A stretch of DNA of 32,552 nucleotides from Phycisphaerales bacterium (lineage in GTDB: Bacteria; Planctomycetota; Phycisphaerae; Phycisphaerales; SM1A02), in the NCBI GenBank assembly GCA_009692015.1, contig SIAB01000010.1:1-32552 (forward strand), in the 5' to 3' direction. Of the stretch, positions 1,271 through 26,849 are shown piece after piece (the first letter of the stretch is position 1; every line of letters begins with the position of its first letter). The notes beneath the pieces are model-generated. The model had not been told where the DNA came from and did no database searches. It saw only the letters and a list, made by a program, of their open reading frames with translations. A program made the position numbers and the translations under genes.

Positions 1271-1878
1271 GACCCACCTCGCTGCCGCGAGTCGCGGCTC
1301 GCAATCGCCCACGCTTCCGCCGAGAGTCGAATACCAACCTTGTTCTTGTCCTCAAGCCAAGTGAGTTTGACGCTGTTGATCGAATCGATCGCAGAGTGTT
1401 CTTCAAAGTCGTTGAGGATCTGAGCGACCTCGTCAGCAGGGGCTTCGAATTGAATCTCGCCGCGCAACCGCTCAATTCGACGCCCCGCTCCAGCAACGGT
1501 TGTGAGCGCACTGCTGGGAAGTTTCCCTCCCGACATTGCCTCATATCCGTACGAGGTGATCCGATGTTTTTTCATCGTTTCGTTGACTGCCTGAGCGAGC
1601 GACTCAGACGCCCGAGATTCCGCATCTGGTAGCTCGACAGCGCCAAAGGCGACCACGGCGCTCTCAACATCTTTGGAAAGGGGTCCCTGTCTGGCTGCCC
1701 CGCGTTGAAGCAACGACTGCAGCCGATCCCCATCGGCCGTCCACTGCCGCGCGTAGCTCCAACAGTAGTCGTCGAGAAACACATACACGACGACCACCCC
1801 TGCAGCGACAATCGCGTTGCGCCACACGGGCGGCAACTTCTGGAATCGCGTCATAATGCTCGGCTTCGATTCGGTCAT
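1267..1878 (-). CDS. gspM: GspM-like inner-membrane assembly protein
   Basis: 203 aa, starting at an ATG that forms an ATGA overlap with the preceding gene's stop and has a strong GAGGAA Shine-Dalgarno. It has a short cytoplasmic N-terminus, a single membrane span (about 21-37) and a periplasmic part with a helical region followed by an alpha/beta domain of ferredoxin-like appearance ('RIERLRGEIQFEA ... LNDFE'). This architecture and its place between gspL and gspC fit GspM (equivalent to PilO), which forms a dimeric scaffold with GspL around the GspE motor. Sequence conservation in GspM is low, so the call rests mainly on topology, size and order. Confidence 0.65.
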   Translation of the reverse strand: MTESKPSIMTRFQKLPPVWRNAIVAAGVVVVYVFLDDYCWSYARQWTADGDRLQSLLQRGAARQGPLSKDVESAVVAFGAVELPDAESRASESLAQAVNETMKKHRITSYGYEAMSGGKLPSSALTTVAGAGRRIERLRGEIQFEAPADEVAQILNDFEEHSAIDSINSVKLTWLEDKNKVGIRLSAEAWAIASRDSRQRGGS

Positions 1879-5272: not shown

Positions 5273-6258
5273 TTGGGACGCGCCCCTGGGCCGCCGCCCG
5301 TTGGTCGTCCACTGCCGGGCGCGCCGCCACCTGCACCGCGACCTCCTAAACCCGCCGAGCCGCCACTGCTGCCGCCACGACCGCCGCCCCCTCCGCGGCC
5401 ACCACTGAATCCGCCGCCCTGCGGCATACCAATGTTGGCTGGCACACCTGCAGTCGGATCAACGGTGATTCCTCCCGATGCTGCGGTGCCCGCCGCGCTT
5501 CCACCACCAGCGGCTTCGTCGGCAGTCGCGACACCCCCCCCAGTGAGCTCTCCCGACTCCTCGGGGAGGGGCTCCTCGTATGGAGGCACGACGCGATCGA
5601 TTGGAACAATCGTCCGCAAGCTCATGAGTTCACGCGAATCTTCATACGGATCGGTGCCGTCAGGATCTCCCGCAGAAGTCACGGTGACGCGGAGCGCCCA
5701 TGGCAATCCATAAATGTCAGAATCCCACGTGTCGTACCAGTCCGATCCGTCATAGGCCTCGATGTACAGGCCGACTACTCCGTCCATCATCGGCATCGCC
5801 CGGCCGCCACCGCGCTCGTTGTCATCTGGAACCGAGTCCGTGCGAACCCAGAGTTCGCTTCCAAGATCGTCCTCAGCGACACGCACTTGAACCTCACACT
5901 CCAGGCCGTCGCCGCTGTAAGCCTTCTGGCGGACTGCGGAGAGTTTGGTGGCGTAGAGCAGTAACTCGCTTCTGGGGACTTCACCGATTGGAGTCTCCAT
6001 CATTCCGTCGCCGAGCAGGATTCTCGTGTGCAGCAAATTGTCGCTGCGAACAACCTGTTGCAGTTCTCGGCGAATTCGATCGAGAGCCGCGTTTGCCCGC
6101 AGGTGCGCGGTGAGTCGAACTTTGGAGGTTGCCCGCGCCCGTGCAAGTTGACCGAGGGATGTCCCGATCGTTCCGACCACGATCACAGCGACGATTCCCG
6201 CAACGATCAGCTCAACGAGGGTGAAGGCGCGATAGGTGACGGGCTTACTTCGGCGCAT
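5269..6258 (-). CDS. gspJ: GspJ-like minor pseudopilin with Gly-rich C-terminal tail
   Basis: 329 aa from the ATG at 6258, chosen because it places the prepilin leader 'MRRSKPVTYRA' directly before 'FTLVELIVAG' and has a GAGG Shine-Dalgarno; the longer open frame inside gspI would bury the leader. Glu5 is present. The globular part (about 55-225) is beta-rich and resembles the GspJ/PilW group ('ALDRIRRELQQVV', 'SELLLYATKL'). From about residue 240 to the end (329) the protein is almost entirely Gly with Ala, Ser, Pro and Arg. Gene overlaps are 14 bases with gspI and 4 bases with gspK. GspJ binds GspI and GspK at the pseudopilus tip. Confidence 0.72.
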   Translation of the reverse strand: MRRSKPVTYRAFTLVELIVAGIVAVIVVGTIGTSLGQLARARATSKVRLTAHLRANAALDRIRRELQQVVRSDNLLHTRILLGDGMMETPIGEVPRSELLLYATKLSAVRQKAYSGDGLECEVQVRVAEDDLGSELWVRTDSVPDDNERGGGRAMPMMDGVVGLYIEAYDGSDWYDTWDSDIYGLPWALRVTVTSAGDPDGTDPYEDSRELMSLRTIVPIDRVVPPYEEPLPEESGELTGGGVATADEAAGGGSAAGTAASGGITVDPTAGVPANIGMPQGGGFSGGRGGGGGRGGSSGGSAGLGGRGAGGGAPGSGRPTGGGPGARPN

Positions 6259-6706
6259 CGGTTGCCTCGCTCTTGGACTCGAAGTAGCCCTCGCGGTCGA
6301 AAGCCTCCGATGGTTGACGGGTTGGATTTGGCTCGTCTCCCAACCGAAGTGCGATGCGCGTGGCGCATCGGAACTCTCGCCCGACCGGATCGCGCACGAT
6401 CGCCAGCACATCGCAGGGTTCTCCCGGTTCTGCCTTCTCAATATCCACTTGATACTCAAAGTCATCCCAAGGCGCATCGCACATTCCAGTGCGGTCGTGC
6501 ATCTTGGGCCAGTCCTCCGGCCCTTCGACCAAGACGCTCGCCAGGAGTTCGTCGAGCAAGGCTGCGGCGAGGACGGCGCGTTCTCCCCGCTGTTGATCCA
6601 TCAGCGCGCGGGCTGCCAAGGAGACGATTGATCCGAGTCCAATGGCGAGGATCACTCCGGCGATCACGACTTCCATCAAGGCGAACGCACGGCGTGTTGG
6701 GGTCAC
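6245..6706 (-). CDS. gspI: GspI-like minor pseudopilin
   Basis: About 153 aa. Two adjacent GTG codons (6709 and 6706) could start it; 6706 is preferred because it overlaps the gspH stop as GTGA and lies 7 bases from a GAGGTG Shine-Dalgarno. The leader 'TPTRRA' precedes 'FALMEVVIAGVILAIGLGSIVSLA', with Glu5 kept and Met in place of Ile at +4, typical of GspI/PilV proteins. After the helix come a short domain with two cysteines and an acidic, Pro-containing tail. It lies between gspH and gspJ as expected for the minor pseudopilin that nucleates the tip complex. Confidence 0.72.
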   Translation of the reverse strand: MTPTRRAFALMEVVIAGVILAIGLGSIVSLAARALMDQQRGERAVLAAALLDELLASVLVEGPEDWPKMHDRTGMCDAPWDDFEYQVDIEKAEPGEPCDVLAIVRDPVGREFRCATRIALRLGDEPNPTRQPSEAFDREGYFESKSEATDAPK

Positions 6707-7278
6707 CACTGTTCACCTCGGCTGCCATACGCATCGAGATCCACTGCCTCGCGCCCACGATCGGCGGATTGCCCTGCATCGATACGTACGGGTACCACTG
6801 TGTTGGAGTCGAGTCGAAGCACCGTGTCGATCGATCCTGAAACGAAGTGCATTTCAATACTCGGGCGACCGCCACCCGGAACGGTCGCTGCGAGCCAGTC
6901 GGTCCCGGTGACATCATTTCCATCAATCGTAAGCTCGGCCAACTCCATTCCGCGCGGCAGCGCGACCGGCGAAATCTGGCGATCGGCGAACCATTCGAAG
7001 CGCGTTTGTTCGAAGTTTGAGCCGGAGCCCGTTAGATCTCGTTCGGAAGTCAAGAGTGCGATCCACCCAGTCTCGGGATCTTGCCAGAGCGCAATCTGTT
7101 GGGGCGAAGTCGCATCGCGGAAGGCGTACATCGACAGCAGGTCGACCATCTGCACAATCGCATTCTCGTGTTCAGCCTTGATCGACCGCGTGAGTCGCGG
7201 AACGATCAGCGCGCCGAGAACTGCGAGAATCACCACCGCGATGATGATCTCAATCAGGGTAAAGGCGCGGCGAGGCAA
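6703..7278 (-). CDS. gspH: GspH-like minor pseudopilin
   Basis: 191 aa from a TTG codon that directly gives the short leader 'MPRRA' before 'FTLIEIIIAVVILAVLGALIVPRL', five bases after the gspG stop; no better start exists in frame. Glu5 is present. The C-terminal domain is beta-rich with 'RFEWFADRQISPVALPRGMEL', similar to the GspH/FimT group. The gene order G-H-I-J-K supports the assignment. GspH is thought to link the pseudopilus body to the tip complex. Confidence 0.7.
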   Translation of the reverse strand: MPRRAFTLIEIIIAVVILAVLGALIVPRLTRSIKAEHENAIVQMVDLLSMYAFRDATSPQQIALWQDPETGWIALLTSERDLTGSGSNFEQTRFEWFADRQISPVALPRGMELAELTIDGNDVTGTDWLAATVPGGGRPSIEMHFVSGSIDTVLRLDSNTVVPVRIDAGQSADRGREAVDLDAYGSRGEQW

Positions 7279-10654: not shown

Positions 10655-12007
10655 TCAAGGATCCACGCCCGAAGCGCCGCGTGGTTCGCGCGCCTTGCTC
10701 GGGGCACTTTGGCGCGATATCGCCTTTGCATCGCCACCGTCTCCTCCGCGAGTCTCGCGCGGGCTGGCGGACTCACTGCCGAAGTCTGGTCGGTTCGATC
10801 CAGCCTTCTGCTCCGGCCGCGATCGCGCGGACTCTGCTGCAGCCTTCGCCGCGCCAGGAAGGAGTTCAGAGAGCTCTGCGCCGAGTATCGCAGCGATGTC
10901 GGCGCGCGCCTTCTCATCGGCCGCGTCGCGCTCCGCATAAAGTGACTGATAGGGACCGCCCGCGACTGGCTTTGGGGTCGTTGGTGAACCCTGATTCATC
11001 CGTCGGCGCGTCTCCTCCGTTTGTTTCTTGGGTTCCTCGGTACGCGTCGCGTTTGCGAATCGATCTTGCCAATCGGAATACCACGGGACATACGCAGTTT
11101 CAACCGCATTGATCTGAGTGATCTGCTCGGGGGAGAGTCCTGAGATTTCGCGAGCTGCTGCGAAGAATGGGATCAGTGGGCTTGGTCGATAGACGGTTGG
11201 GTAGGCGGTGGCGCGGGCAAGTGCGCGGAATGCGGCGCCCCATTTCTCGCCGTAGGCAGCCGCGAGCGAATCAATCGAGCGATCCTGCAGGTCGCGAAGT
11301 GCCACACGCGTTGCCACGATCAACTCCAGTTCTTTCAGTCCAGTTGCGAAATCATCGGCAACCATTGCCTCTTTGATCTTGTCTTGCGATTCGGTGAGTT
11401 GAGTCGAGCGAGCGAGCAGTGCCGCATCGAGCCCTGCCTCATAGTTCAAGAGTGCTTCCGTTGCAGCGAGCATGACCTCGGGCGGCACCTCGCTCTCTCG
11501 CGAGACCGTGCGCAGGTCGATGCTTTCGCCACTGAGAACTCCTCGGGGGAGTTCCTTCTCGCGGCGCATTGCCCGCTCGAGTCCGGGCCACCGTGCTTGC
11601 TGTTCGTCGCTCAGGACGCTTCGGAGATTCACCTCGAATCGCTGCTTGAGTCGGCGCTTCTCTTGTGCCCACTGATTGATCGGAACCATGAGCACGCCGA
11701 TGGCACCTTGTTCCCCGGCACTCAGAATCTTGTCTTTAAGATTCTTCATCTGGTCGCGCAGTCCGTCGACCCCCACTTTGAAATCTCCCGAGTAGTCATT
11801 CACGAGGCTCTCGACGGTCGGTTGTTGCCAATCTTCGAGCTCTAGGAATTCAACGAAGAGGGTGACATCGCGATTGAGGTAGTCAGGCTGAAAGGCCTCG
11901 ACAAATCCAGCTTGCAGTCCCATCTGGGCGTGGGTTGAATTGGTCGAGATCGCCACCAGCAGAGCGACTGCAGCAAAGAACGTACGCATGGGAAAAGATG
12001 GTGTCAT
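10655..12007 (-). CDS. Exported helical protein of unknown function, first gene of the T2SS operon
   Basis: 450 aa from the ATG at 12007, chosen for its GAAGGA Shine-Dalgarno and because it places a signal peptide at the N-terminus ('MRTFFAAVALLVAISTNSTHAQ', cleavage near residue 28 after the HA-Q segment); a second ATG six codons later is possible. The mature part is predicted highly helical and charged, with two 'LS-x-EQ' motifs ('VLSDEQQARW', 'GLSPEQITQI') reminiscent of the LTxxQ motif of Spy/CpxP-like periplasmic proteins. The last 90 residues or so are low-complexity and charged, probably disordered. I do not recognise a family. Being 15 bases from gspE on the same strand, it is probably co-transcribed with the secretion genes. 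A role as substrate or periplasmic accessory is a guess. Confidence 0.7.
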   Translation of the reverse strand: MTPSFPMRTFFAAVALLVAISTNSTHAQMGLQAGFVEAFQPDYLNRDVTLFVEFLELEDWQQPTVESLVNDYSGDFKVGVDGLRDQMKNLKDKILSAGEQGAIGVLMVPINQWAQEKRRLKQRFEVNLRSVLSDEQQARWPGLERAMRREKELPRGVLSGESIDLRTVSRESEVPPEVMLAATEALLNYEAGLDAALLARSTQLTESQDKIKEAMVADDFATGLKELELIVATRVALRDLQDRSIDSLAAAYGEKWGAAFRALARATAYPTVYRPSPLIPFFAAAREISGLSPEQITQINAVETAYVPWYSDWQDRFANATRTEEPKKQTEETRRRMNQGSPTTPKPVAGGPYQSLYAERDAADEKARADIAAILGAELSELLPGAAKAAAESARSRPEQKAGSNRPDFGSESASPRETRGGDGGDAKAISRQSAPSKAREPRGASGVDP

Positions 12008-12209
12008 GGTCTGAAATCCTTCTCGGATGATTGAGTGTCCCAACAGAACGGGTGGAGGTCGGGGATATGGCAGAAACTCGGCGTGTTTTTGGGGTAACTG
12101 AATGGCTGACGAGGGCGGATTCGACCGAGGCAAAGGCGAACAATGCCGCTTGGGCGATGCGTCCGATAATGCGGTCGCGATTCAGCATTAAGTGGAATCG
12201 TTATGACAG

Positions 12210-15443: not shown

Positions 15444-15914
15444 CTACTCGGTCTTTCCGCCTGTGGAATCATAAACCCAGGCATCCGTCGCTCGGGCGTA
15501 GCCGAGAACTTCACCGGTCTTGAAAAAGAGCGAGAGTTCGCGGGTCGCCGCTTCGGGGCTGTCTGAGCCGTGCACGAGATTGAACGAATTCGAGATGCCG
15601 AAGTCGCCTCGAATCGTTCCCGCTGCAGCCTTGGATCCAAATGTCGCGCCCATCAGGTTTCGGCAGACAGCGATCGCGCCGAGGCCGCGAAGCGCCAGGA
15701 CGACGACTGGTTCGCTGGTCATGAACCGAACGAGTCCAGGATAGAAAGGCTTTGTGGCGTGATCCTTGTAATGCTCGGCGGCAAGTTCGCCCGAGATTTT
15801 CATCATCTTCATCCCCACGACTTGCAATCCCTTTTGTTCGAATCGTGATGTGATGGATCCGATCAGCCCCCGCTGCACTGCGTCGGGCTTGAGAATGATG
15901 AGCGTTGTTTCCAT
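15444..15914 (-). CDS. ndk: Nucleoside diphosphate kinase
   Basis: 156 aa from the ATG at 15914, which has an AAAGGA Shine-Dalgarno; the longer open frame upstream is not needed. The N-terminus 'TLIILKPDAVQRGLIG' and the active-site motif 'NLVHGSDSPEAATREL' with the phosphohistidine are diagnostic. The enzyme moves the gamma-phosphate of ATP to NDPs and dNDPs to balance nucleotide pools. Compared with the usual 140 aa there is a short C-terminal extension ('YARATDAWVYDSTGGKTE'). It is divergent from the topoisomerase VI operon, sharing a 110-base intergenic region. Confidence 0.95.
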   Translation of the reverse strand: METTLIILKPDAVQRGLIGSITSRFEQKGLQVVGMKMMKISGELAAEHYKDHATKPFYPGLVRFMTSEPVVVLALRGLGAIAVCRNLMGATFGSKAAAGTIRGDFGISNSFNLVHGSDSPEAATRELSLFFKTGEVLGYARATDAWVYDSTGGKTE

Positions 15915-16024: not shown

Positions 16025-17836
16025 ATGGACGCCCCACCAGAGACAGAACCTAAGAAGCCAGCAGCTCGCCGCAAGGGGGCGACAGCCGAGGAGATGTCGG
16101 ATCGCCAACGCGAGATTTCGGTCAGCGAGTTCTTTGCGAAGAATCGCCACTTACTCGGCTTCGATAATCCGCGAAAGGCACTCCTAACAGCGGTGAAAGA
16201 GGCCGTGGACAATGCGCTCGACGCCTGCGAGGAAGCAGCGATCCTGCCAGACATTTATGTCGAACTGCTGCAGCGATCGGAGACTCGGTTCAAGGTCACC
16301 GTCCGCGACAACGGTCCTGGAATCGTTCGCAAGCAAATCGAAAACATCTTCGGACGATTGCTGTATGGATCAAAGTTCCATCGCCTGAAGATGAGTCGCG
16401 GACAGCAGGGGATCGGAATTTCTGCGGCTGGCATGTACGGATTGATGACAACTGGCCAGCCTGTGCTCGTCATTTCCAAGACGAGCAAGAAGAAACCTGC
16501 GGTTGAAGTGCTTTTGAAGATGGACACTTCCAAGAACCGTGCGGATGTGGTGAGCGAGACCGAGCATCCGGAGGATGACGGGCTGTTTTCGGATGGCCAC
16601 GGCACGCAAGTATCGATCGAACTGGAGGGGCGATACCAGTTGGGGCGACAGTCAGTAGACGAGTATCTCGATCAGACTGCCATCGCCAATCCGCACGCCT
16701 CGTTCACATTCGTCAATCCCAATAACGAACGGATCGAATTCAAGCGCGGGACAAGCGAGCTCCCACCGGAGTCGAAGGAAATCTTGCCGCACCCCAAGGG
16801 CATCGAACTTGGAACACTGATTCAGATGATCGAACGAACCGCGCGGACGCAAATCGGTGGGTTTCTGCAGGAGGAGTTCTCGCGGGTGTCGCCGTCAGTC
16901 TCGAAGGAGATTTGTCAGCGCGCGGGGATCACCCCGCGAACTTGGGTAACGCAGATCGGGCACAAGGAGGCGGAAGCGATTTACAAGGCGATTCAGGAGG
17001 TGCGAATCATGGCGCCGCCCACGGACTGTCTTGTTCCCATCGGAACGAAGGCACTCTTGTCAGGGTTGTTGAAAGAGTTGAAGGCAGAGTTTTTTACTGC
17101 GTGCACGCGTCCTGCGGATGTCTATCGGGGCAACCCGTTTCTGATTGAAGTGGGGCTCGCATTCGGTGGGGAATTGCCAAAGGACGAGCTGATTCGTGTG
17201 ATTCGTTTCGCCAATCGGGTGCCACTGCTCTATCAGCAATCCGCCTGCGCTTCGTTCAAAGCGGTGCTGGAGACGAGTTGGAAGAACTACGGGATTTCGC
17301 AGTCCCGTGGTTCGCTTCCAGATGGTCCCGTTGTGGTGATGGTGCACATGGCGAGTGTGTGGGTTCCCTTTACGAGTGAATCAAAGGAGGCGATTGCCGA
17401 CTACGACGAAATCCGCAAGGAAATGAAACTCGCGCTTCAGGAAGTTGGGCGAAAGCTTGGCATCTACTTGCGACGGCGTCAGCGGATGCGAAATGAGGGG
17501 GAGCGGCGGAGCATCTTTGAGCGGTACATCGGTGAAATCGCCCAGGCAACCGAGGCGATCACTGGTACTTCCGCGAAGAAAATCTACGAATCACTCATGC
17601 GGGTCGCGCAGAAGAAGACCGAGGAAGCAGACGCGATACTCGATGACGAAGGCAAACGGGTGAAGGACGCTGATCCATTCGGGCGGGACGATTCTGTGGT
17701 GATCCTTCCTGTCCGTTCAGCGCGCGCGGGGGAAGATGAGCGGAAGTCGCACCAAGAGGGTGGCGGCCAATCAAAGACGCTCTTTGGTGATGAGGATGGC
17801 ACCGGCGAAGCGAAGAGGTCACGGAAGAAGAACTAG
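16025..17836 (+). CDS. top6B: DNA topoisomerase VI subunit B (ATPase)
   Basis: 603 aa, ATG start. The GHKL (Bergerat) ATPase fold has the N-box 'EAVDNALDACEE' (59-70), G1 'DNGPGI' (95-100), the 'GRLLYGSKFH' segment (110-119) and G2 'GQQGIGIS' (126-133). A helix-two-turn-helix region (about 260-325, 'EEFSRVSPSVSKEICQRAGI') and a transducer domain (about 330-535) follow as in archaeal Top6B. A charged tail (540-603, ending 'AKRSRKKN') is extra. The B subunit dimerises on ATP binding and drives strand passage through the DNA break made by Top6A, encoded 12 bases downstream. All ATPase motifs are intact. This enzyme is typical of archaea and plants and patchy in bacteria; flanking genes here are bacterial. 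Confidence 0.95.
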   Translation: MDAPPETEPKKPAARRKGATAEEMSDRQREISVSEFFAKNRHLLGFDNPRKALLTAVKEAVDNALDACEEAAILPDIYVELLQRSETRFKVTVRDNGPGIVRKQIENIFGRLLYGSKFHRLKMSRGQQGIGISAAGMYGLMTTGQPVLVISKTSKKKPAVEVLLKMDTSKNRADVVSETEHPEDDGLFSDGHGTQVSIELEGRYQLGRQSVDEYLDQTAIANPHASFTFVNPNNERIEFKRGTSELPPESKEILPHPKGIELGTLIQMIERTARTQIGGFLQEEFSRVSPSVSKEICQRAGITPRTWVTQIGHKEAEAIYKAIQEVRIMAPPTDCLVPIGTKALLSGLLKELKAEFFTACTRPADVYRGNPFLIEVGLAFGGELPKDELIRVIRFANRVPLLYQQSACASFKAVLETSWKNYGISQSRGSLPDGPVVVMVHMASVWVPFTSESKEAIADYDEIRKEMKLALQEVGRKLGIYLRRRQRMRNEGERRSIFERYIGEIAQATEAITGTSAKKIYESLMRVAQKKTEEADAILDDEGKRVKDADPFGRDDSVVILPVRSARAGEDERKSHQEGGGQSKTLFGDEDGTGEAKRSRKKN

Positions 17837-17848
17837 ATAAGGCACTCT

Positions 17849-19006
17849 ATGGCAAAGAAGTCGAAGGAAAGTGAATCGATATCCGCAACACCAAAGCGTG
17901 CGGTTGGGAATCAGGCGACCCGTGACAAGACGCTCGAAAAGATTACGGAGCTGGGTCGATCCGTTGCGAAGGCGGCACTCGCGGAGTCCGATCCATTCGT
18001 CGATGTGCCCACCCGAACCATATCGAACACTTCGTACAACGAAACCCGTCGACTGCTCGAGATGGGGGACGCCACGATGCGGCGAAACCTCTTCAACACC
18101 GGGCAGGCTCGCAAGTTCATGCAGACCGTTCTGCTTTCCAAGGGGTGCAAAGACCTTCTCGAAGCGCGGAAAACGCTGAGTTTGCGCGGGATGTACTACA
18201 TGAGCTTGCACTCCATTCCTGGCACGAAGGAGAAGACCTTTGATGACCAGGAGGAGTCCGATGGGATCCTAGAAGATCTGGAGGTTTCGCTCTCCACACT
18301 GCGCGAGAACTTGCATCTCTTTGCCAAGAAGCGCGGGACGATGGTTGGAAACATCACCGTCGTGGACAACGGCGATCCAATCGATTGTCGAAGGATGGGA
18401 ACGGGGGGGTATGCGATCCCTTCGATTTGTGAACCAGGCGTTGTGCAGTTTGGAAAGTGTGAGGCAAAGTTCGTGCTGCATGTGGAGAAGGACACGGTCT
18501 GGAGTCGCTTCAACGAGGATCGCTTCTGGGAAAAGCACAACTGCATTCTGACTGAGGGCAGTGGGCAGCCACCGCGCGGTGTGCGGCGTTTGCTCTATCG
18601 ACTTCACAAGGAGCTTGGACTTCCGATCTACTGCCTTCTGGACTGTGATCCCTGGGGTCACTACATCTATTCGGTGATCAAGCAGGGGTCGATCAATCTG
18701 GCGTTCGAGAGCGAGCGGATGGCAATCCCCGATGCGAAGTACCTCGGGATCCGATCGGGGGATTTTGCGCGATGCGGTCTCTCAGACGATGTCAAGATTT
18801 CGCTCAACGATCGCGACATTGAGCGCGCCAAGCAAATTGCCGAGTATCCGTGGTTCGTGAAGAAAAAGCACTGGCAGAAGGAGATTCAATTGATGATTCG
18901 CAACGGCTTCAAGATGGAAGTCGAATCGCTCATCACCAAGGACATCTCGTATGTCAGTGAGGTCTATGTCCCGGAGCGATTGAAGGCGAAAGATTGGATC
19001 GACTGA
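17849..19006 (+). CDS. top6A: DNA topoisomerase VI subunit A (Spo11-like, DNA-cleaving)
   Basis: 385 aa, ATG with an AAGG Shine-Dalgarno, 12 bases after top6B. The winged-helix (CAP-like) domain carries 'KTLSLRGMYYMSL'; by homology with Spo11 the catalytic tyrosine is Tyr117. The Toprim domain has Glu213 in 'LHVEKDTVW' and the metal-binding pair Asp265/Asp267 in 'CLLDCDPWGHYIYSVIKQGS'. Subunit A makes 5'-linked double-strand breaks with two-base overhangs, through which the A2B2 enzyme passes a second duplex. The first 30 residues are charged and low-complexity. All key residues are present, so I expect an active enzyme. The two subunits almost certainly form an operon. Confidence 0.95.
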   Translation: MAKKSKESESISATPKRAVGNQATRDKTLEKITELGRSVAKAALAESDPFVDVPTRTISNTSYNETRRLLEMGDATMRRNLFNTGQARKFMQTVLLSKGCKDLLEARKTLSLRGMYYMSLHSIPGTKEKTFDDQEESDGILEDLEVSLSTLRENLHLFAKKRGTMVGNITVVDNGDPIDCRRMGTGGYAIPSICEPGVVQFGKCEAKFVLHVEKDTVWSRFNEDRFWEKHNCILTEGSGQPPRGVRRLLYRLHKELGLPIYCLLDCDPWGHYIYSVIKQGSINLAFESERMAIPDAKYLGIRSGDFARCGLSDDVKISLNDRDIERAKQIAEYPWFVKKKHWQKEIQLMIRNGFKMEVESLITKDISYVSEVYVPERLKAKDWID

Positions 19007-19039: not shown

Positions 19040-19909
19040 TCACGAGGTGCTGGGAAGTGAAATCCGGAAGTCGCTCCCGCGACCAACTTCGCTGAAGAGG
19101 TGAATGGATCCTCCGTGCTCTTCGATGATTCGGCGGGCAACGGCGAGTCCCAATCCGCTCCCGCCCTTTTTGGATGTGATGTAAGGGCGGAAGATCTCCT
19201 CGCGCAGACCTTCGGGAATACCCGGTCCCGTGTCGATGACATGGATTGAGACTTCGCGGGGTAACCCAGGATTGGCGGGTTGGCCCTCAACACGCAGGAT
19301 CAGTTCCCGTCGCGCGGGTGGGGCGACGGAGTCCATGGCCTGCATTGCGTTGAGCATGAGGTTCAGCACCGCTTGCTTGAGCAGTCCCGCATCGACATTG
19401 GCGACAACTGGCTGTGGTGGGAGGTCGCTGCGTAGCAGCACACCGGTCAGTTCGGATTGCGGATGAACGAAATCGGAGAGTTCGTCGATGAGTACCCGCA
19501 AGTCGCAGGGTTGCCGATCGAGCTGGATCCTTCCCGCGAAGCGAAGGAAGTCCTCCAGGATGTCCTTGAGCCGCGCCGTTTCGCGGGCGAGGGTGTCGAC
19601 CCGCCGTACGATCCGCTGCGATTCCTCCTTGGGCAATTCGGCATCGAGGACAGCCTCTCGCAGCAACTGGGCGTTGAGCACGACGCTCGAGAGTGGGTTC
19701 TTGATTTCGTGCGCGAGCCCGCCGGTCAAGGCACCAAGTTCAGCGAGCCGTTCTGCGGCAACGGCCCTCCGCTCGGCGCGCTGCGCACGTTCGCTGCGCC
19801 GCCGAAAGAAGATGAGAAATGCCAGCGCGCAGGTCGAGACCCCGAGAATCACGCCGAGAGTAAAGGCAAGAGAGGAAATCACCAGGGCCGGCCATGCACT
19901 CCAACTCAA
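19040..19909 (-). CDS. Membrane-anchored sensor histidine kinase
   Basis: About 289 aa from a TTG at 19909 that overlaps the stop of the cold-shock gene (TTGA), matching other junctions here; the frame is also open to a TTG at 19960. An N-terminal hydrophobic region gives one or two membrane spans, with no sizeable extracytoplasmic sensor. The HisKA domain has 'GGLAHEIKNPLSSVVLNAQLL' with the phospho-acceptor His. The HATPase_c domain has N-box 'NLMLNAMQAMD', G1 'DTGPGIPE', F-box 'IFRPYITSK' and G2 'GGSGLGLAVAR'. It resembles the NtrB/AtoS/ZraS-like group. No response regulator lies beside it. It converges with top6A, 33 bases away. Confidence 0.88.
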   Translation of the reverse strand: MSWSAWPALVISSLAFTLGVILGVSTCALAFLIFFRRRSERAQRAERRAVAAERLAELGALTGGLAHEIKNPLSSVVLNAQLLREAVLDAELPKEESQRIVRRVDTLARETARLKDILEDFLRFAGRIQLDRQPCDLRVLIDELSDFVHPQSELTGVLLRSDLPPQPVVANVDAGLLKQAVLNLMLNAMQAMDSVAPPARRELILRVEGQPANPGLPREVSIHVIDTGPGIPEGLREEIFRPYITSKKGGSGLGLAVARRIIEEHGGSIHLFSEVGRGSDFRISLPSTS

Positions 19910-20160
19910 GCGGTTGGTGCGATCGCACGCGCGACCGCTCGTGCGTGAGATGCTGCCCAACCCTTGGTCCCGGACTGGGCGCTATAGATGACCTTTTCCC
20001 CGTCGCGCAAGGTTCGAAAGCCTTGCTCTTGATCAATCACACTGAAATGCACGAAAATATCTTGGCCCTGCGGTCCAACAATAAATCCGAATCCCTTGCG
20101 CGCATCGAACCACTTGACGATGCCTTCGGAATCTTGGATTTTCTGCTCGGTTTCAGACAT
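19906..20160 (-). CDS. Cold-shock domain protein (CspA family)
   Basis: 84 aa from the ATG at 20160, preceded by a strong GGAGGT Shine-Dalgarno. The OB-fold has 'GIVKWFDARKGFGFIVG' (RNP1 'KGFGFI') and 'DIFVHFSVI' (RNP2). About ten extra residues precede the core and a short Ala/Arg-rich tail ('HARAVARAIAPTA') follows it. Such proteins bind single-stranded RNA or DNA and keep mRNA unfolded. The stop codon overlaps the TTG of the histidine kinase gene, so the two are likely translated from one mRNA. The 20161-20316 stretch upstream should hold its promoter, but I see no clear one. Confidence 0.92.
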   Translation of the reverse strand: MSETEQKIQDSEGIVKWFDARKGFGFIVGPQGQDIFVHFSVIDQEQGFRTLRDGEKVIYSAQSGTKGWAASHARAVARAIAPTA

Positions 20161-20380: not shown

Positions 20381-22654
20381 TTAGCGGCGCCCGCGGCCAC
20401 CATGGCCACCATGACCACCATGACCGCCGCGTCCGCGGTCGCCACGGTCGTCCCGTCGACCATCTTCGCCTTGTGGTGCGCCTTCGCCCTCTGCTCCGAC
20501 GAGTGCTGGATCCGGTGGATCAAGGAGGGCCTTGCGGCTCAATTTGATTCGTCCCGTGTCGTCAACGCTGATGACTTTGACGCGCACGGAGTCGCCAATC
20601 TTGAGCACTTCGGTGACACTTCGCACATAGCCGTGAGCGAGTTCGCTGACATGCACCATGCCGTCAGTTCCCGGCGCCAATTCCACGAAGGCGCCGAATT
20701 CCTTGATCGAGACCACCCGTCCCTCGTAGATCGTGCCGACCTTGATCTCCGCGCCGAGCGCTTCGATTTCGGCGCGCGCTTGTGCGGCGTTGGCAGCATT
20801 GGAGCAGGCGATGAAGACCGTGCCGTCTTCTTCGATGTCGATCTGCGCTCCGGTGCGTTCTTGAATGCTGCGGATCATCTTGCCGCCCGGACCGATGACC
20901 TTTCCAATCTTTTCCGGATCGATCTTCACGATCGTGATCCGCGGAGCGAGCGGAGAGATATCGCCGCGTGGCTTCTCAAGGGTCTTTTCCATCTCGTCGA
21001 TGAGGAACAGTCGGCCTTCCTTCGCTTGAACGAAGATGGTCGTGATTTCTTCGATCGAGAGTCCGCGTGCCTTCAAATCCAACTGAATGCCCGTGATTCC
21101 ATCGCGGGTCCCAGAGACTTTGAAGTCCATCTCGCCGAAGAAGTCTTCTTCGCCGATGATGTCGGTGACATGGGTGACGCGACCATCGGCGCTGGTAAAG
21201 CGACCGACGGAAATGCCTGCGCAGGTCGCCTTGATCGGGACGCCCGCATCCATGAGCGCCAAGCATCCGCCGCAGACGCTGGCCATGCTCGACGAGCCAT
21301 TGCTCTCGGTGATTTCACTGGTGAGGCGAACGGTGTATGGGAAGTCCTCTGCGCTAGGGAGGATGGCGAGGAGTGAGCGCTCGGCAAGCGCGCCGTGTCC
21401 GATTTCGCGGCGACCGGGTCCGGTGATTCGACCAGCCTCGCCGGTACAGAATGGAGGGAAGTAATAGTGAAGGTAGAACTTCTTGGCATACTCGGGCATC
21501 AGGCCATCGACGATCTGCTCATCTTTGGTTGTGCCGAGCGTGCAGGTCACGATGGACTGCGTCTCGCCGCGCTGGAAGAACGCAGATCCGTGGGTGCGGG
21601 GCAAGAGCGCAACGCTCATATCGAGCGGGCGAATCTGTCGCAGAGGACGACCATCTGCGCGGACTCCCTTTTCAGCGACCAAGTAGTGGGTGATCTTCTT
21701 CTCGAGCAGACGCAATGATTCCTTCGCCTCGCGCGCCTTGCGCTCGGCCACAAGATGATCGCTGTAGCTCAGACCCGCGGGGATCTGAAAGTGCGAATCG
21801 ATCGTCCACTTCTTGACGCGATCCACCTCTGTGTTTCGAGCATGCTTGCCGTGAATCTGTCGCGCAGCGAGCAGGGGTTCGTAGGCCTTCTCCTTCACGA
21901 GAGCCATCACTTCGGCGGATGGCGCCGTGGACTCGCCGAGCCTCTTGGCAGGCGCGCCGCACTTGGTGTGAAGTTCATGAATGAGATCCAAGATCGGTCG
22001 AAGGCCGTTTTCGGTGCCAAAGCGAATCGCAGCGACCATGTCGGTTTCGCTGATTTCGGCAGCGCCAACCTCGATCATGTTGATTCCGTCGCAGTGACCG
22101 GAGAGCACCAGATCAAGATCGCTGAACTCCATCTGGGCTTGGGTTGGGTTGATGACAAAGTGCGGCTGATCATCGATAAAAATGCGACCGACACGCACCG
22201 TTGCAACCGGACCGTTGAACGGCGCATCGGAAATGTGCAGAGCTGCAGACGCGGCGGAGCAGCCAAGGACATCGGCGTCGTTCTGGCCATCGTGCGAGAG
22301 CACCAGAACCTGCAGTTGAACCTCGTCCACGAATCCTTCGGGGAAGAGTGGTCGGATCGGACGATCCATCATCCGCATCGTGAGGATTTCCTTCTCGCTC
22401 GGCGGACCTTCTTTCTTTCGAAAGCCGCCTGGATACTTCCCACCAGCCGGTGCCTTCTCGCGGTAGTCGCAGGTGAGCGGGAAAAAATCGATGCCCGCGC
22501 GCGGATTGGCTCGGACGGCGGTCGCGAGGACGACGGTTTCTCCGAAGGTTGCGAGGACCGCTCCGCTCGCCAACTTGGCGATCTTGCCCGTCTCGAGGCG
22601 GAGGATTCGTCCTCCGATTTCCCTCTCAACGGTGATGTGTGGTCGTGATGTCAT
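20381..22654 (-). CDS. pnp: Polyribonucleotide nucleotidyltransferase (PNPase)
   Basis: 757 aa, ATG with an AAAGG Shine-Dalgarno. Two RNase PH domains flank a helical linker. The first contains 'FFPLTCDYREKAPAGGKYPGGF' (62-83) and 'MMDRPIRPLFPEGF'; the second, catalytic one has 'GSAFFQRGETQSIVTCTLG'. A KH domain ('KVIGPGGKMIRSIQERTG') and an S1 domain ('GRVVSIKEFGAFVELAPGTDG') follow. The last 30 or so residues are a Gly/Arg/His-rich tail with GGH repeats, absent from E. coli PNPase (711 aa). It degrades RNA 3'-5' using phosphate. It is encoded after rpsO, with a long hairpin between them. Confidence 0.96.
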   Translation of the reverse strand: MTSRPHITVEREIGGRILRLETGKIAKLASGAVLATFGETVVLATAVRANPRAGIDFFPLTCDYREKAPAGGKYPGGFRKKEGPPSEKEILTMRMMDRPIRPLFPEGFVDEVQLQVLVLSHDGQNDADVLGCSAASAALHISDAPFNGPVATVRVGRIFIDDQPHFVINPTQAQMEFSDLDLVLSGHCDGINMIEVGAAEISETDMVAAIRFGTENGLRPILDLIHELHTKCGAPAKRLGESTAPSAEVMALVKEKAYEPLLAARQIHGKHARNTEVDRVKKWTIDSHFQIPAGLSYSDHLVAERKAREAKESLRLLEKKITHYLVAEKGVRADGRPLRQIRPLDMSVALLPRTHGSAFFQRGETQSIVTCTLGTTKDEQIVDGLMPEYAKKFYLHYYFPPFCTGEAGRITGPGRREIGHGALAERSLLAILPSAEDFPYTVRLTSEITESNGSSSMASVCGGCLALMDAGVPIKATCAGISVGRFTSADGRVTHVTDIIGEEDFFGEMDFKVSGTRDGITGIQLDLKARGLSIEEITTIFVQAKEGRLFLIDEMEKTLEKPRGDISPLAPRITIVKIDPEKIGKVIGPGGKMIRSIQERTGAQIDIEEDGTVFIACSNAANAAQARAEIEALGAEIKVGTIYEGRVVSIKEFGAFVELAPGTDGMVHVSELAHGYVRSVTEVLKIGDSVRVKVISVDDTGRIKLSRKALLDPPDPALVGAEGEGAPQGEDGRRDDRGDRGRGGHGGHGGHGGRGRR
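20397..20427 (-). repeat. Short tandem repeat encoding the PNPase GGH tail
   Basis: About three and a half copies of a 9-base unit (CCACCATGG/A on the plus strand) encode repeated Gly-His-Gly in the PNPase C-terminus. The slight variation between units at the third base suggests it is maintained at the protein level. Confidence 0.7.
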
Positions 22655-22800: not shown

Positions 22801-23067
22801 TTACTTGCGTAATCCGAGTTTCTTGATGAGCGTTGCGTAACGCACGCGTTCGGTGTCGGCGAGGTATCGCAGGAGGCGATTGCGCTTGCTGACCATGAGG
22901 AGGAGTCCGCGGCGGCCGGCGTGATCCTTGGCGTGCGACTTGAAGTGACCTTGAAGCGAATTGATGCGCTCGGTCAGGATGGCGATTTGGACTTCTGTCG
23001 ATCCGCAGTCCTTGGCGTGGTGGCGGTTTGCCGCGATCACTGTTGCTTTGTCGATGGTTGAAATCAT
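22801..23067 (-). CDS. rpsO: 30S ribosomal protein S15
   Basis: 88 aa, full length for the family. Conserved blocks are '[26 protein letters not shown]', '[23 protein letters not shown]' and the C-terminal '[12 protein letters not shown]'. S15 is a primary binder of 16S rRNA that starts assembly of the small-subunit platform. The start codon has only a weak Shine-Dalgarno, which would fit translational control as seen for S15 in other bacteria. It is followed by pnp as in most bacteria. Confidence 0.97.
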
Positions 23068-23160: not shown

Positions 23161-23244
23161 CGAGCGGGGTCCAAACAGGCCGATTGAAGCCGCTCATTGG
23201 ATGCCGACGGCGCGACATCTCCGGGGGGTGGAGCGATCCCGAAC

Positions 23245-23250
23245 TATCCT
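23245..23250 (+). promoter_or_regulatory. Candidate -10 element (TATCCT) for leaderless carboxylase mRNA
   Basis: TATCCT is followed by exactly six bases and then the ATG at 23257; there is no Shine-Dalgarno. The same TATCCT-N6-start arrangement occurs at 25566. No -35 is evident. Confidence 0.35.
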
Positions 23251-23256
23251 CCTCGG

Positions 23257-24894
23257 ATGAAGATCGCCTCCGATGGTCTGCGAGCCGCCACCGACGATTT
23301 TGTGGTGCTGTCTGCCAAGATTGAACAGGGTGGCGGTGCCAATGGAATTGAGCGCCAACATCGGCTCGGTCGGCTGACTGCTCGCGAGCGGGTGGGTCTG
23401 CTGCTTGACCCCGCGACACCGCAGTGCGAGTGTGGGCTCATGGCGGGGTGGAACATGTACCGCGAGTACGGCGGAGCACCCAGCGCCGGCGTTGTCACCA
23501 CGATCGGAGAGATCGCCGGAAGACTGTGCATGGTGATCGCCAATGACGCGACGGTCAAGGCAGGAGCGTTTTTCCCGATGACCTGCAAGAAGATAATCCG
23601 AGCGCAAGAGATTGCCCAGCGCGCGCGACTTCCGCTGGTGTATCTCGTTGATAGTGCAGGCGTGTTCTTGCCGCTTCAGGAGGATGTCTTTCCTGACACC
23701 GACGACTTTGGGCGCATCTTTCGCAACAACGCCGTGATTTCTGCGGCTGGCATCTCGCAGTATGCAGCGATCATGGGAAACTGCGTTGCAGGCGGTGGGT
23801 ACCTGCCCGTGCTGTGTGACACGCTCTTGATGACCGAGGGAAGTGGGCTGTATCTCGCTGGTCCCGCCCTCGTGAAGGCTGCGATTGGTCAAGAGGTCTC
23901 GAGCGAGGAACTCGGCGGCGCAACGATGCACGCCCAGATTTCTGGCACGATCGATTTCCACGAGAAGGACGATCCGACCTGCATTGCGCGCCTGCGACGA
24001 CTGATGTTGATGAACGCGTCTGCTCCCAAGGTGAGCGCGCCGCCTGTCGAGGCGGTCGATGCTGAGCGAGCGGCGGAGGAGGTCTATGGCATCTATCGCA
24101 ACGAGCCGAGCGCGCAGTACGACATGCGCGATCTCTTGAAGTGTGTTGTTGATCGCGGATCCGCCGACGAGTACCGCGCAGAGTTTGGTCCATCGCTGGT
24201 TTGTTTGTACGCGCGCATTGGCGGGTTTCCGGTTGGAATCGTCGCGAATCAGCGCAAGCTGAGTGAGCGGCACTTGTCACGCGGCAAGTCTGGACCGACA
24301 TCCACGCAATGCATGCCTGCCGTGATCTACGACGATAGCGCCGACAAGGCTGCGCGGTTCATCATGGATGTGAATCAGCGGAGGATTCCCCTCGTGTTCA
24401 TCCATGACACAACGGGATTCATGGTGGGGCGCGACAGTGAGCAAGCTGGGATCATCCGCAGCGGCGCGAAGATGGTGAATGCGATGAGCAACTCAATCGT
24501 TCCCAAGATTGTGCTGATCGCCGGGAACTCGTATGGCGCGGGGAACTATGCGATGTGTGGACGGGCGTTCGACCCCTTCATCACCCTGGCGTGGCCCGGC
24601 GCTAGGTGCGCGGTGATGGGAGCAGCACAGGCGGCCAACACGCTGCTGCAGATCGACCTTGCTTCGCGGGAACGCAAGGGTGAAGCGATCGATGATGCCA
24701 CCCGTGCGCAGTTGCTCGCGGCGATCACAGCGTCCTATCAAGAGCAGCAGGACATTCGGTACGCAGCGAGCCGTGGCTGGGTGGATCGCATCATTGAGCC
24801 GCATCACACCCGTGCCGAGTTGATTCTGGCACTCCGTGCCGCCGCGCAGGCACCGATCGCCGCGTCGTTTCAGACTGGCGTGCTTCAGACCTGA
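23257..24894 (+). CDS. Acyl-CoA carboxylase beta subunit (methylcrotonoyl-CoA carboxylase-like)
   Basis: 545 aa from the ATG at 23257; the frame is open to a TTG 60 bases earlier, but that adds a non-conserved extension. Both carboxyltransferase halves are present. The N-half has 'RLTARERVGLLLD', 'VVTTIGEIAGRLCMVIANDATVKAGAFFPMT' and 'VDSAGVFLPLQEDVFPD'. The C-half has 'DTTGFMVGRDSEQAGIIRSGAKMVNAMS' and 'GNSYGAGNYAMCGRAFDP'. The 'DSAGVFLPLQEDVFPD' and 'TGFMVGRDSE' segments resemble methylcrotonoyl-CoA carboxylase beta more than propionyl-CoA carboxylase. It would carboxylate an acyl-CoA using biotin loaded by a separate alpha subunit, not seen in the window. A role in leucine breakdown is likely but not proven. 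Confidence 0.9.
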   Translation: MKIASDGLRAATDDFVVLSAKIEQGGGANGIERQHRLGRLTARERVGLLLDPATPQCECGLMAGWNMYREYGGAPSAGVVTTIGEIAGRLCMVIANDATVKAGAFFPMTCKKIIRAQEIAQRARLPLVYLVDSAGVFLPLQEDVFPDTDDFGRIFRNNAVISAAGISQYAAIMGNCVAGGGYLPVLCDTLLMTEGSGLYLAGPALVKAAIGQEVSSEELGGATMHAQISGTIDFHEKDDPTCIARLRRLMLMNASAPKVSAPPVEAVDAERAAEEVYGIYRNEPSAQYDMRDLLKCVVDRGSADEYRAEFGPSLVCLYARIGGFPVGIVANQRKLSERHLSRGKSGPTSTQCMPAVIYDDSADKAARFIMDVNQRRIPLVFIHDTTGFMVGRDSEQAGIIRSGAKMVNAMSNSIVPKIVLIAGNSYGAGNYAMCGRAFDPFITLAWPGARCAVMGAAQAANTLLQIDLASRERKGEAIDDATRAQLLAAITASYQEQQDIRYAASRGWVDRIIEPHHTRAELILALRAAAQAPIAASFQTGVLQT

Positions 24895-24910: not shown

Positions 24911-25558
24911 ATGACGACTCCCGCGCGAGCATCGATTGTCGTGGCGACGGGAAATCCGCACAAAGTGATTGAGATTCGCGAGATACTCGGAGAAGTGGGG
25001 ATTGAGGTGCTGTCCCTGAACGAAGTCGCATCTGGTGATCTTGCGGAACCGCAGGAGGATGGATCCACCTTCGCGGAAAATGCGCGGTTGAAGGCAGTTG
25101 GGTATGCGCGAGCGATTGGGCGAACCGTGCTGGCCGACGACTCGGGACTCTCGGTCGATGCGCTCGGGGGGAATCCAGGGATTCACAGCGCACGGTGGGC
25201 GGGTGTCGGTGGGACCCGCGCCGAGCGCGATGCGGCAAACAACGCAAAGTTGCAGCGCGAACTCGCCGCGCGGCCAAGCGCGTCGCGGGGCGCCCGGTTC
25301 ATTTGTGCGATGTGCCTCGCTGCAGCGGATGGTTCTGTGATCGCCGAGACGGTTGGCGAGTTCGTTGGTGTGATCGCAGATTCACCCCGTGGAGCAAATG
25401 GATTCGGCTATGACCCCTACTTCGTTGTCGATGCCAGTGGTCGCACGAGTGCGGAACTCTCGCCGTCTGAAAAGAACGCAAGAAGCCACCGCGGGTGCGC
25501 AGCGCGCGCGATGGCGGGGTTCTTGGCGAGACTGCGCGCGGAGCCCGACGCGAGTTGA
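24911..25558 (+). CDS. rdgB: dITP/XTP pyrophosphatase (RdgB/HAM1)
   Basis: 215 aa from the ATG at 24911; a GTG at 24899, four bases after the carboxylase stop, is an alternative that adds four residues. Family motifs are clear: 'VVATGNPHKVIEIREIL' at the N-terminus, 'EDGSTFAENARLKA', 'VLADDSGLSVDALGGNPGIHSARWAG', 'GFGYDPYF' and 'SHRG'. The enzyme removes non-canonical purine nucleotides (dITP, XTP) by hydrolysis to the monophosphate, preventing their use in DNA and RNA. The close spacing suggests co-transcription with the upstream carboxylase gene, although their functions are unrelated. Confidence 0.95.
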   Translation: MTTPARASIVVATGNPHKVIEIREILGEVGIEVLSLNEVASGDLAEPQEDGSTFAENARLKAVGYARAIGRTVLADDSGLSVDALGGNPGIHSARWAGVGGTRAERDAANNAKLQRELAARPSASRGARFICAMCLAAADGSVIAETVGEFVGVIADSPRGANGFGYDPYFVVDASGRTSAELSPSEKNARSHRGCAARAMAGFLARLRAEPDAS

Positions 25559-25565
25559 CCCTCCG

Positions 25566-25571
25566 TATCCT
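25566..25571 (+). promoter_or_regulatory. Candidate -10 element (TATCCT) for leaderless YkgJ-like mRNA
   Basis: TATCCT is followed by six bases and the GTG start at 25578, with no Shine-Dalgarno. It is the same arrangement as at 23245. Confidence 0.3.
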
Positions 25572-25577
25572 GATTGA

Positions 25578-26849
25578 GTGACGATCGCGCTTCCCATCTT
25601 GGCATTGGCGACGGCTGGCCAGCGATACACCTGTCATGGCTGCGGCAACTGTTGCCGAGATTTCACCGTGCAACTTCGCCAGGCGGATGTTCGGCGCCTT
25701 TCTGAGCAGGCGTGGGAGTCTCGACTCGGCGAGAACCCTGTCGTGCAGTTTCGAGGAAGGCAATACCTGCGCCAACGCGCGGATGGCGCGTGTGTCTTCT
25801 TGCTCGAGAATGGTCGATGTCGCATCCACGCAGAATTCGGATTTGAGTTGAAGCCGATCGCTTGCCAACTCTTTCCATACATGGTCGCGCCGGGGGAAAA
25901 CGCGAGCCAGATGGGAGTGAGTTTCGCCTGTCAAAGTGTGATTGAGAACAAGGGCAGACTCTTGAATGAGCAAGTTCCGGATGCACTTCGCATCGTCCTG
26001 CGCGGGCTGCCGGAGGTGATCAGCCCGGCGCGCGGTGCCTCGCTCGCGCGGGGTCGCAATGCGGAACCGAACGAGTTGCATGTGCTCAGCACTCGACTTG
26101 TGCACTGGCTGCGCGAGCCGATTCCGCTCGCAGTGCGTCTCGACGGGCTCGCGTGGATCGCGCAGACGCTTCGTATCGCTCGGCTGAACCGGGTTCGTGG
26201 CAAACGCTTCGAGGAGCTCATGTCTGTCCTCTTTGGCGCGCTCGCCGACGAACTGCCATTGCATCCGATCGCCATCCCGACGGCGCGGCAAACCGCGCTC
26301 TTTCAGAACGCGATCTTTTCGCGGACCGAAGATCCCAAGCCGATTGCCCAGGGTGCACCTCTGCGTGTGATTTCGATTCTGAGCCAATTGCGTCGCGGTC
26401 GTGCGTGGCGGCGGGGAAGCGGCGAGAGCGTGGTTCCGCCCGTTGGGGTTGGATGGCCGACCAAGGTGACATTCGGCGGAGTCTCTCGGGTCGGATCGCT
26501 GCGGCAATCATCCGATCATCTGGCCTGCGACGAATTGGTGACCCGGTGGCTGCACGCATCGATCGAGGGTGGGCGGGTGTGGGGATCGGGCTACTACGGA
26601 TGGTCCGCAGTTGAGGGTCTCGCGGCGCTGGCACTTTCTGCTGCGTGTGTTGGCTGGCTGGCGCGCCTGCACGCGGCGGGATCGGGTGAACGATTGGTGC
26701 GCCTCGTCGACCTCCAAGCGGCCATCGGTCGCGTCGATCGCACTGCCGGGCGCGCGGTTTGGCTTGGCGGATGGTCGGAGCGAATGCGACTGTCCTACTT
26801 GGTCGAGCAAGAAGGACTGCGCAGACTCATCGCCGCGCAGTACGCGTAG
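25578..26849 (+). CDS. YkgJ-family cysteine-cluster protein, long form
   Basis: 423 aa from a GTG 19 bases after rdgB. The N-terminal 120 residues carry the metal-binding pattern of the YkgJ/UPF0153 family: 'CHGCGNCC' (C19, C22, C25, C26), then 'CVFLLENGRCRIH' and 'KPIACQLFPY'. These proteins are thought to bind zinc or an iron-sulfur centre; no activity is established. The remaining 300 residues have no motif I recognise. They include Arg-rich segments and a mildly hydrophobic C-terminal part ('VEGLAALALSAACVGWLARLHA'). The protein is clearly longer than common 100-250 aa family members. Its last 23 bases overlap the convergent membrane protein gene. Confidence 0.75.
   Translation: MTIALPILALATAGQRYTCHGCGNCCRDFTVQLRQADVRRLSEQAWESRLGENPVVQFRGRQYLRQRADGACVFLLENGRCRIHAEFGFELKPIACQLFPYMVAPGENASQMGVSFACQSVIENKGRLLNEQVPDALRIVLRGLPEVISPARGASLARGRNAEPNELHVLSTRLVHWLREPIPLAVRLDGLAWIAQTLRIARLNRVRGKRFEELMSVLFGALADELPLHPIAIPTARQTALFQNAIFSRTEDPKPIAQGAPLRVISILSQLRRGRAWRRGSGESVVPPVGVGWPTKVTFGGVSRVGSLRQSSDHLACDELVTRWLHASIEGGRVWGSGYYGWSAVEGLAALALSAACVGWLARLHAAGSGERLVRLVDLQAAIGRVDRTAGRAVWLGGWSERMRLSYLVEQEGLRRLIAAQYA

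Follow-up and report, generated by a model that had tools for sequence, protein, structure and literature searches.

Planctomycete DNA topoisomerase VI: one family of B subunits, two families of A subunits and near-exclusion of a ParC-like paralog

Two archaeal DNA topoisomerase VI (Topo VI) enzymes are among the closest described counterparts of the gene pair analyzed here, top6B and top6A of a Phycisphaerales bacterium (Planctomycetota). The pair lies within a stretch of 32,552 nucleotides (contig SIAB01000010.1 of assembly GCA_009692015.1; hereafter, the window), which is contig 78 of a source genome of 1.74 Mb in 98 contigs. Topo VI of Saccharolobus (Sulfolobus) shibatae (PDB: 2zbk), an organism not known to possess gyrase, provides the nearest solved A subunit (269 bits, 41% identity), and this subunit falls on the same side of the A tree as that of the window, but the S. 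shibatae B subunit is only 33% identical to window B. In Methanosarcina mazei Topo VI (PDB: 2q2e, 9o0g), the whole B architecture is as in the window, with all motifs present (505 bits, 48% identity), but the A subunit is only 32–33% identical to window A. Like the host of the window, M. mazei has gyrase in the same cell (PMC8837201).

The presence of Topo VI in Planctomycetota is already published. Allen and Maxwell (2024) reported that Pirellulales and other Planctomycetota likewise possess Topo VI beside gyrase, without topoisomerase IV (Topo IV) in the planctomycetes listed there (PMC11302465). In the same study, bacterial A and B subunits each form two clusters, read as transfers from archaea, and further work was considered necessary to establish the role of bacterial Topo VI. 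The parts of that paper used here contain no description of a single B family paired with two A types and no test against Topo IV covering the phylum. No other account of either was found in the open-access literature, covered as titles and opening lines of abstracts, with subscription papers and preprints lying outside this scope.

An earlier note on this DNA, made from the sequence alone, had described adjacent intact genes for the ATPase and the cleaving subunit; its coordinates, motifs and catalytic residues were all borne out. Both genes lie on the forward strand, 12 nucleotides apart, and have the following features:

16025..17836, forward strand: top6B, ATPase subunit of Topo VI, 603 amino acids (intact open reading frame (ORF), family matches, AlphaFold2 model)
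16082..16729, forward strand: GHKL ATPase domain of B, about residues 20–235, with N-box, G1 and G2 (approximate limits)
16730..17014, forward strand: H2TH region of B, about residues 236–330 (approximate limits; sub-threshold Pfam NFACT_N match at 245–326 and model helices)
17015..17503, forward strand: transducer and start of the stalk of B, residues 331–493 (PF09239 match 331–493)
17504..17632, forward strand: end of the stalk and C-terminal helical hairpin of B, residues 494–536 (change point, identities and model helices; putative A-binding, by homology)
17849..19006, forward strand: top6A, DNA-cleaving subunit, 385 amino acids, of the rarer S-type defined below (intact ORF, family matches)
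18110..18319, forward strand: winged-helix cleavage domain TP6A_N with catalytic Tyr117 (Pfam, residue check)
18470..18982, forward strand: Toprim domain with Glu213, Asp265 and Asp267 (Pfam, residue check)

Window B matches the Pfam family Topo-VIb_trans at 1.7e-59 and the NCBIfam model PRK04184 with 689 bits (cut-off 274); window A matches TOP6A-Spo11_Toprim at 5.6e-59 and NF003333 with 529 bits (cut-off 465). B combines a GHKL ATPase (N-box EAVDNALDA at residue 59, DNGPGI at 95 and RGQQGIGI at 125) with a transducer and an H2TH domain, the latter recognized from a sub-threshold match together with the model. A, encoded by its own gene, carries the winged-helix tyrosine and the Toprim E...DxD signature, with Tyr117, Glu213, Asp265 and Asp267 all in place. 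These four residues and eight GHKL-motif positions of B are invariant in all 81 subunit pairs collected from the phylum (see below); transducer Lys454 of B is a lysine in 80 of the 81, and position 428, the tenth B position checked, is variable. When the AlphaFold2 model of B (best of five, mean predicted local distance difference test score 74.5) was compared with PDB, M. mazei Topo VI-B (9o0g_B) was matched at E = 1.3e-54, and the first 16 matches were all Topo VI-B structures. The model places helices at residues 460–513 and 517–536; beyond residue 537 it is mostly of low confidence and no Ig-like domain is visible. Judged by sequence, the product of the two genes is a canonical Topo VI in which no catalytic residue is missing.

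Three related systems were considered and set aside. Spo11 with a topo VIB-like partner would imply a degenerate GHKL domain and no H2TH in B, whereas the GHKL motifs here are intact and B has a Topo VI-B fold. Topoisomerase VIII, defined as encoded on plasmids, whether free or integrated (PMC11302465), is at odds with the housekeeping neighbors and with the match to the Topo VI-B equivalog above its cut-off. As to MksG or another Toprim defense nuclease, no MksBEF-like match was found among the 17 neighboring ORFs scanned. Regarding nomenclature, NF003333, the Top6A family of NCBIfam, bears the name 'DNA topoisomerase IV subunit A', which is copied in haloarchaeal records (L275, L276). Surveys of Topo IV based on names may therefore count Topo VI as Topo IV.

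We analyzed the distribution of Topo VI in 294 genomes of the phylum, with presence defined by a match to the B transducer. Such a match was found in 136 genomes and a match to A in 133. Topo VI is thus common in the phylum but patchy: to account for its presence on an rpoB tree, 14 changes are required (79 genomes; 80 were hand-picked to include varying families, and one, G133, had no rpoB match). The two-gene operon is not general across the phylum: in three single-contig genomes, top6A and top6B lie about 0.5 Mb (G127), 0.7 Mb (G167) and 1.3 Mb (G287) apart. In six genomes (G167, G121, G205, G141, G076 and G110; loci L086, L088, L089, L107, L108 and L111), the PF09239 match to the B transducer is split in two, suggesting that this domain contains an insertion; this is not so in the window.

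How does this distribution relate to that of type IIA enzymes? The check for gyrA/B and parC/E proposed in the earlier note yielded a single PF00521 protein in the genome of the window, bearing the GyrA-box-like motif QGRGGIG (a loosened form of the GyrA box was used), and a single PF00204 gene. A first, plain count of PF00521 genes across the 294 genomes gave a negative association with Topo VI. Counting every PF00521 gene as Topo IV, however, turned out to be too coarse, since the extra copies form two main classes, of which class 2 alone excludes Topo VI. Among 51 PF00521 proteins of 35 inspected genomes, the GyrA-box-like motif is present in one copy per genome (35) and absent from the 16 others. 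Twelve of these box-less copies belong to class 2 (frames of about 800–900 amino acids) and three to class 3 (about 640 amino acids); L269 fits neither. Class 2 was counted at a score of at least 712 bits, which leaves out partial matches in G191 (533 bits) and G281 (520 bits), both without Topo VI, along with similar-scoring GyrA cross-hits. Class 3 was counted at E ≤1e-120, which takes in nine longer proteins (frames of about 860–1000 amino acids, 562–600 bits). These nine may be a form of their own, and Topo VI is absent from every one of their nine genomes.

Class 2 occurs in 49 of the 294 genomes, a single one of which, G186 (6% contamination), has Topo VI too. Of genomes with Topo VI, 1 has class 2 and 135 do not; of those without, 48 have it and 110 do not (Fisher p = 7.6e-14). 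Among genomes at least 95% complete, class 2 is found in 0 of 26 with Topo VI versus 23 of 42 without. On the rpoB tree, 13 independent pairs could be compared: on average, 9.6 changed in opposite directions, 0 in the same direction and 3.4 remained unchanged (median p = 0.002). Within the window's own order, families f1–f3 combine Topo VI with a lone PF00521 gene (with a single exception, G172), and all four genomes of family f4 have class 2 and no Topo VI. In the 35 checked genomes, all 12 with class 2 possess two PF00204 genes, the second adjoining the class-2 gene in 9 of the 12, and the 19 that have Topo VI but lack both ParC classes all possess one. From the missing GyrA box and the ParE-like neighbor we infer that class 2 is ParC, a subunit of Topo IV. 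The class-2 proteins (L255, L257–L259, L262–L268 and L240) are 57–69% identical to L255 across distant families, and may themselves have spread laterally where Topo VI was lost. Topo IV (ParC/ParE) is a type IIA enzyme whose A-subunit architecture is unrelated to that of Topo VI; its cellular role is presumed to be that of planctomycete Topo VI, and its candidate class-2 form is nearly never found beside Topo VI. This pattern agrees with Topo VI being a substitute for Topo IV. What the enzyme does alongside gyrase, a question the earlier note had left open, is therefore less open than it was, as the near-exclusion points to the job of Topo IV.

The second feature of planctomycete Topo VI concerns its composition. 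Window A shares 49–75% identity with the A subunits of 42 further genomes (S-type) and no more than about 36% with those of the other 90 (M-type); intermediate values do not occur. Of the subunits that were long enough (87 A and 91 B), we kept 81 pairs (39 S-type, 42 M-type) and dropped the 6 A and 10 B that lacked a complete partner. When same-family pairs are left out, mean A identity is 56.0% within S, 62.1% within M and 33.1% between S and M; the corresponding values for B are 52.9%, 54.9% and 51.5%. Trees were computed first in a quick version (81 genomes for B) and then in a careful one (42 of the 81 pairs). In the careful A tree, a branch with support 100/99 parts S-type A and S. shibatae from M-type A, M. 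jannaschii, M. mazei and two haloarchaea; a single clade of all A subunits of the phylum is rejected by the approximately unbiased (AU) test (p = 5.6e-7). In contrast, the B trees set the phylum as a single group apart from the archaeal references (support 81/86 in the careful version), and S-type B forms one group within the quick tree (99 in the Shimodaira–Hasegawa-like approximate likelihood ratio test). Whereas the B tree (81 genomes, a different set) requires a single change of the S label, the rpoB tree (79 genomes) requires 11. Furthermore, both quick gene trees, unlike the rpoB tree, place G038 (family f42) with G251 (family f1), so that pairs have moved as units. Taken by trees and identities, planctomycete Topo VI is a mosaic of a homogeneous B and an A of two families, and the window carries the rarer S-type A, whose nearest solved relative is that of Saccharolobus.

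B itself is not uniform along its length. At residues 20–478, identity between S and M is within 2 points of that within M, and at residues 494–540 it falls to 17.9%, compared with 50.8% within M and 35.1% within S. The change point lies before residue 494 (bootstrap 5–95% range 486–494), and none of 1000 permutations gave one as strong. At conservation cuts of 70–80%, all five type-specific B sites (494, 498, 506, 528 and 532) are in the tail (p = 9e-9 at 75%). In seven of nine control sets of clades, type-specific sites at the 0.75 cut included 0–1 tail sites. The other two were family f62 (4 genomes), with 3 of 18 sites in the tail, and a 33-genome M set, with 3 of 4, although the latter nearly restates the S/M split. 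In M. mazei, the winged-helix domains of Top6A bind the C-terminal helical hairpin that follows the stalk of Top6B (PMC13040014). By analogy, residues 494–536 of window B would be the A-binding element, and A together with the part of B that grips it would be an exchangeable cutter module, presumably exchanged as one.

The flanking genes named in the earlier note (ndk, rpsO, pnp and type II secretion system (T2SS) genes) were all found: T2SS E, F and K lie in the flanks, together with a T2SS J match below its cut-off. The main neighbors are:

15444..15914, reverse strand: ndk, divergent, conserved neighbor (PF00334, 2.7e-51; start codon placed at 15914 by inference)
19040..19960, reverse strand: sensor histidine kinase, convergent, conserved neighbor (HisKA and HATPase_c; synteny)
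20381..22654, reverse strand: pnp, member of the conserved block (Pfam, synteny)
22801-23067: rpsO (Pfam scan)

A scan of named genomes for relatives of window A gave at least 590 candidates, 571 of them confirmed, of which we considered the best 80, ranked by similarity to the window. All 80 are titled planctomycetes except L198, an uncultured bacterium, which by the nature of the ranking says little on other phyla. The four closest A subunits among the matches listed (L144–L147, from independent metagenome-assembled genomes) are 91, 89, 89 and 87% identical; two of the records are titled Singulisphaera sp. GP187 and the others Phycisphaerales. These four loci and the same-family genome G251 all share the gene order ndk–top6B–top6A–histidine kinase–pnp. 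It follows that the contig is not chimeric and that the pair is an old resident of the lineage; intact homologs in conserved synteny likewise rule out a pseudogene. Together with the gyrase genes in the same genome, this upholds the suggestion of a bacterial resident gene pair. The base-composition check proposed alongside it was less telling: the bin 18001–19000 has the lowest GC content of the window (0.545), the other two operon bins have 0.566 and 0.560, and the remaining bins range over 0.559–0.645, so that the operon differs only slightly from its flanks. A viral or plasmid origin was rejected, since window B, the subunit searched, had no match among 50,697 phage records, and near-full-length plasmid matches of both subunits were confined to three haloarchaeal replicons (plus two partial matches for B). 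The IMG/VR contig L224 (IMGVR_UViG_3300037657_000197) carries a top6B–top6A pair at 3378–7152, its A 58% identical to that of the window; it may be a planctomycete contig that was assigned to viruses in error, or else a genuine viral carrier. No RNA genes were found within the window. A 359-residue ORF at 23194–24273, adjoining rpsO/pnp, has no Pfam match, and matches to it occur at the same place in several relatives. ORFs at 1875–3854 (659 amino acids), 10655–12133 (492) and 25299–26507 (402) also have no Pfam match, the first two lying in the T2SS region.

We consider it probable that the pair forms a working A2B2 Topo VI that acts as a chromosome decatenase beside gyrase, the sole type IIA enzyme detected, and that it is a mosaic of one planctomycete motor and an exchangeable cutter. 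By analogy with the solved archaeal enzyme, ATP would close the B dimer on one duplex, force transmitted along the transducer stalk would reach the A dimer, and the two tyrosines would open a second duplex through which the first passes, while gyrase would keep the chromosome negatively supercoiled. The motor would comprise B residues 1 to about 493, of one planctomycete lineage, and the cutter would be A with its predicted holder in B, here of the S-type. The enzyme of M. mazei acts preferentially as a decatenase (PMC8837201) and, according to unpublished data cited in PMC11302465, complements a temperature-sensitive parE mutant of E. coli. Given this activity, the complementation and the exclusion of class 2, a decatenase role is likely for planctomycete Topo VI.

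Several observations weigh against this role. Class 2 is not called Topo IV by NCBIfam; the model that fits it best bears the general name 'DNA topoisomerase (ATP-hydrolyzing)', and one of three class-2 proteins tested exceeded the cut-off of that model. It is class 3 that matches NF007209, 'DNA topoisomerase IV subunit A', above cut-off (two tested), and class 3, present in 48 of the 294 genomes, shows no association with Topo VI on the rpoB tree (median p = 1). Moreover, 75 genomes have neither Topo VI nor class 2 nor class 3, and 69 of them possess a single PF00521 gene (three have two and three have none). As 27 of these 69 are at least 90% complete, a second type II enzyme is not obligatory. 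Even within the window's own order, G172 (98% complete) has none of the three but one GyrA-like and one PF00204 gene, and apparently lives on gyrase alone. The rpoB set, being hand-picked with few genomes devoid of all three enzymes, inflates the share of informative pairs, and the window's own genome is only 85.8% complete. If Topo VI instead served a special task such as repair or mobile-element control, its near-absence from class-2 genomes would reflect lineage habits rather than a shared function. The co-occurrence of Topo VI and class-3 ParC in 13 genomes would be natural under such a task, as would the existence of genomes that lack Topo VI and possess only one PF00521 gene. Yet the exclusion recurs in about ten independent pairs with none pointing the other way, and hand-picking does not explain the lack of same-direction pairs, because G186, the sole genome with both enzymes, was included. 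The neighbors ndk, pnp and rpsO, and the lack of any defense or mobile-element family in the Pfam scan of the 17 neighboring ORFs, also speak against a special task, which we regard as improbable.

The origin of the mosaic can be read in more than one way. It is quite possible, though we would not put it at even odds, that A and the A-binding tail of B were replaced once, as a cassette, by a homolog one-third identical, and that the hybrid was then passed on laterally within the phylum, where it and class-2 Topo IV replaced each other repeatedly. Here, too, some data are unfavorable: S-type B as one clade has support of 73/99 in the careful tree, laxer cuts put type-specific sites outside the tail as well (the tail holds 6 of 9 at a cut of 60% and 8 of 21 at 50%), and the archaeal sampling consists of 5 A and 4 B sequences. 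A clade of S-type B with S. shibatae is not rejected (AU p = 0.40; the tree in question has a branch of 5.7 changes per site). This result, the thin sampling and the movement of pairs as units (G038 with G251) would all suit an S-type operon assembled in an archaeon or another bacterial phylum and imported whole, with no swap inside Planctomycetota. However, B residues 20–478 are about as alike between S and M as within them, and the M. mazei and S. shibatae B subunits are farther from both, so that a separate import would need a donor B from the same planctomycete lineage. The planctomycete titles of the best 80 named loci (L198 again excepted) point the same way, weakly, as the loci were ranked by similarity to the window. 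On balance, import of the whole operon seems rather unlikely. Alternatively, the tail was not exchanged with A but diverged quickly by co-adaptation after a new A had arrived alone. In line with this, the S tail (19.5% identity) is not nearer to S. shibatae than the M tail (27.5%), and A and B are unlinked in several genomes, so that A can move alone. On the other hand, the boundary before residue 494 is sharp, and since top6B precedes top6A, a single crossover in the stalk would carry both the tail and A. Co-adaptation of this kind is a serious contender, with a chance a little short of one in two. Whichever of these applies, the alternative offered by the earlier note, an old transfer or lineage-specific retention, was too simple: Topo VI is patchy, has moved laterally as a pair, and in the window has an A lineage different from that of most relatives, with a similar B. 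The phylogeny proposed there gave a clear answer for A, split into two families that are parted together with the archaea, and a partial one for B, whose trees group the phylum but whose AU tests are indecisive.

If Topo VI and the likely Topo IV have replaced each other in about ten independent comparisons, the idea of a decatenase substitute becomes testable in matched sister lineages, for example, in the four families of the window's own order. Furthermore, the two A types on one B may be viewed as a natural domain-swap experiment on the coupling between the ATPase motor and the DNA gate, which bears also on Spo11 and its B-like partner.

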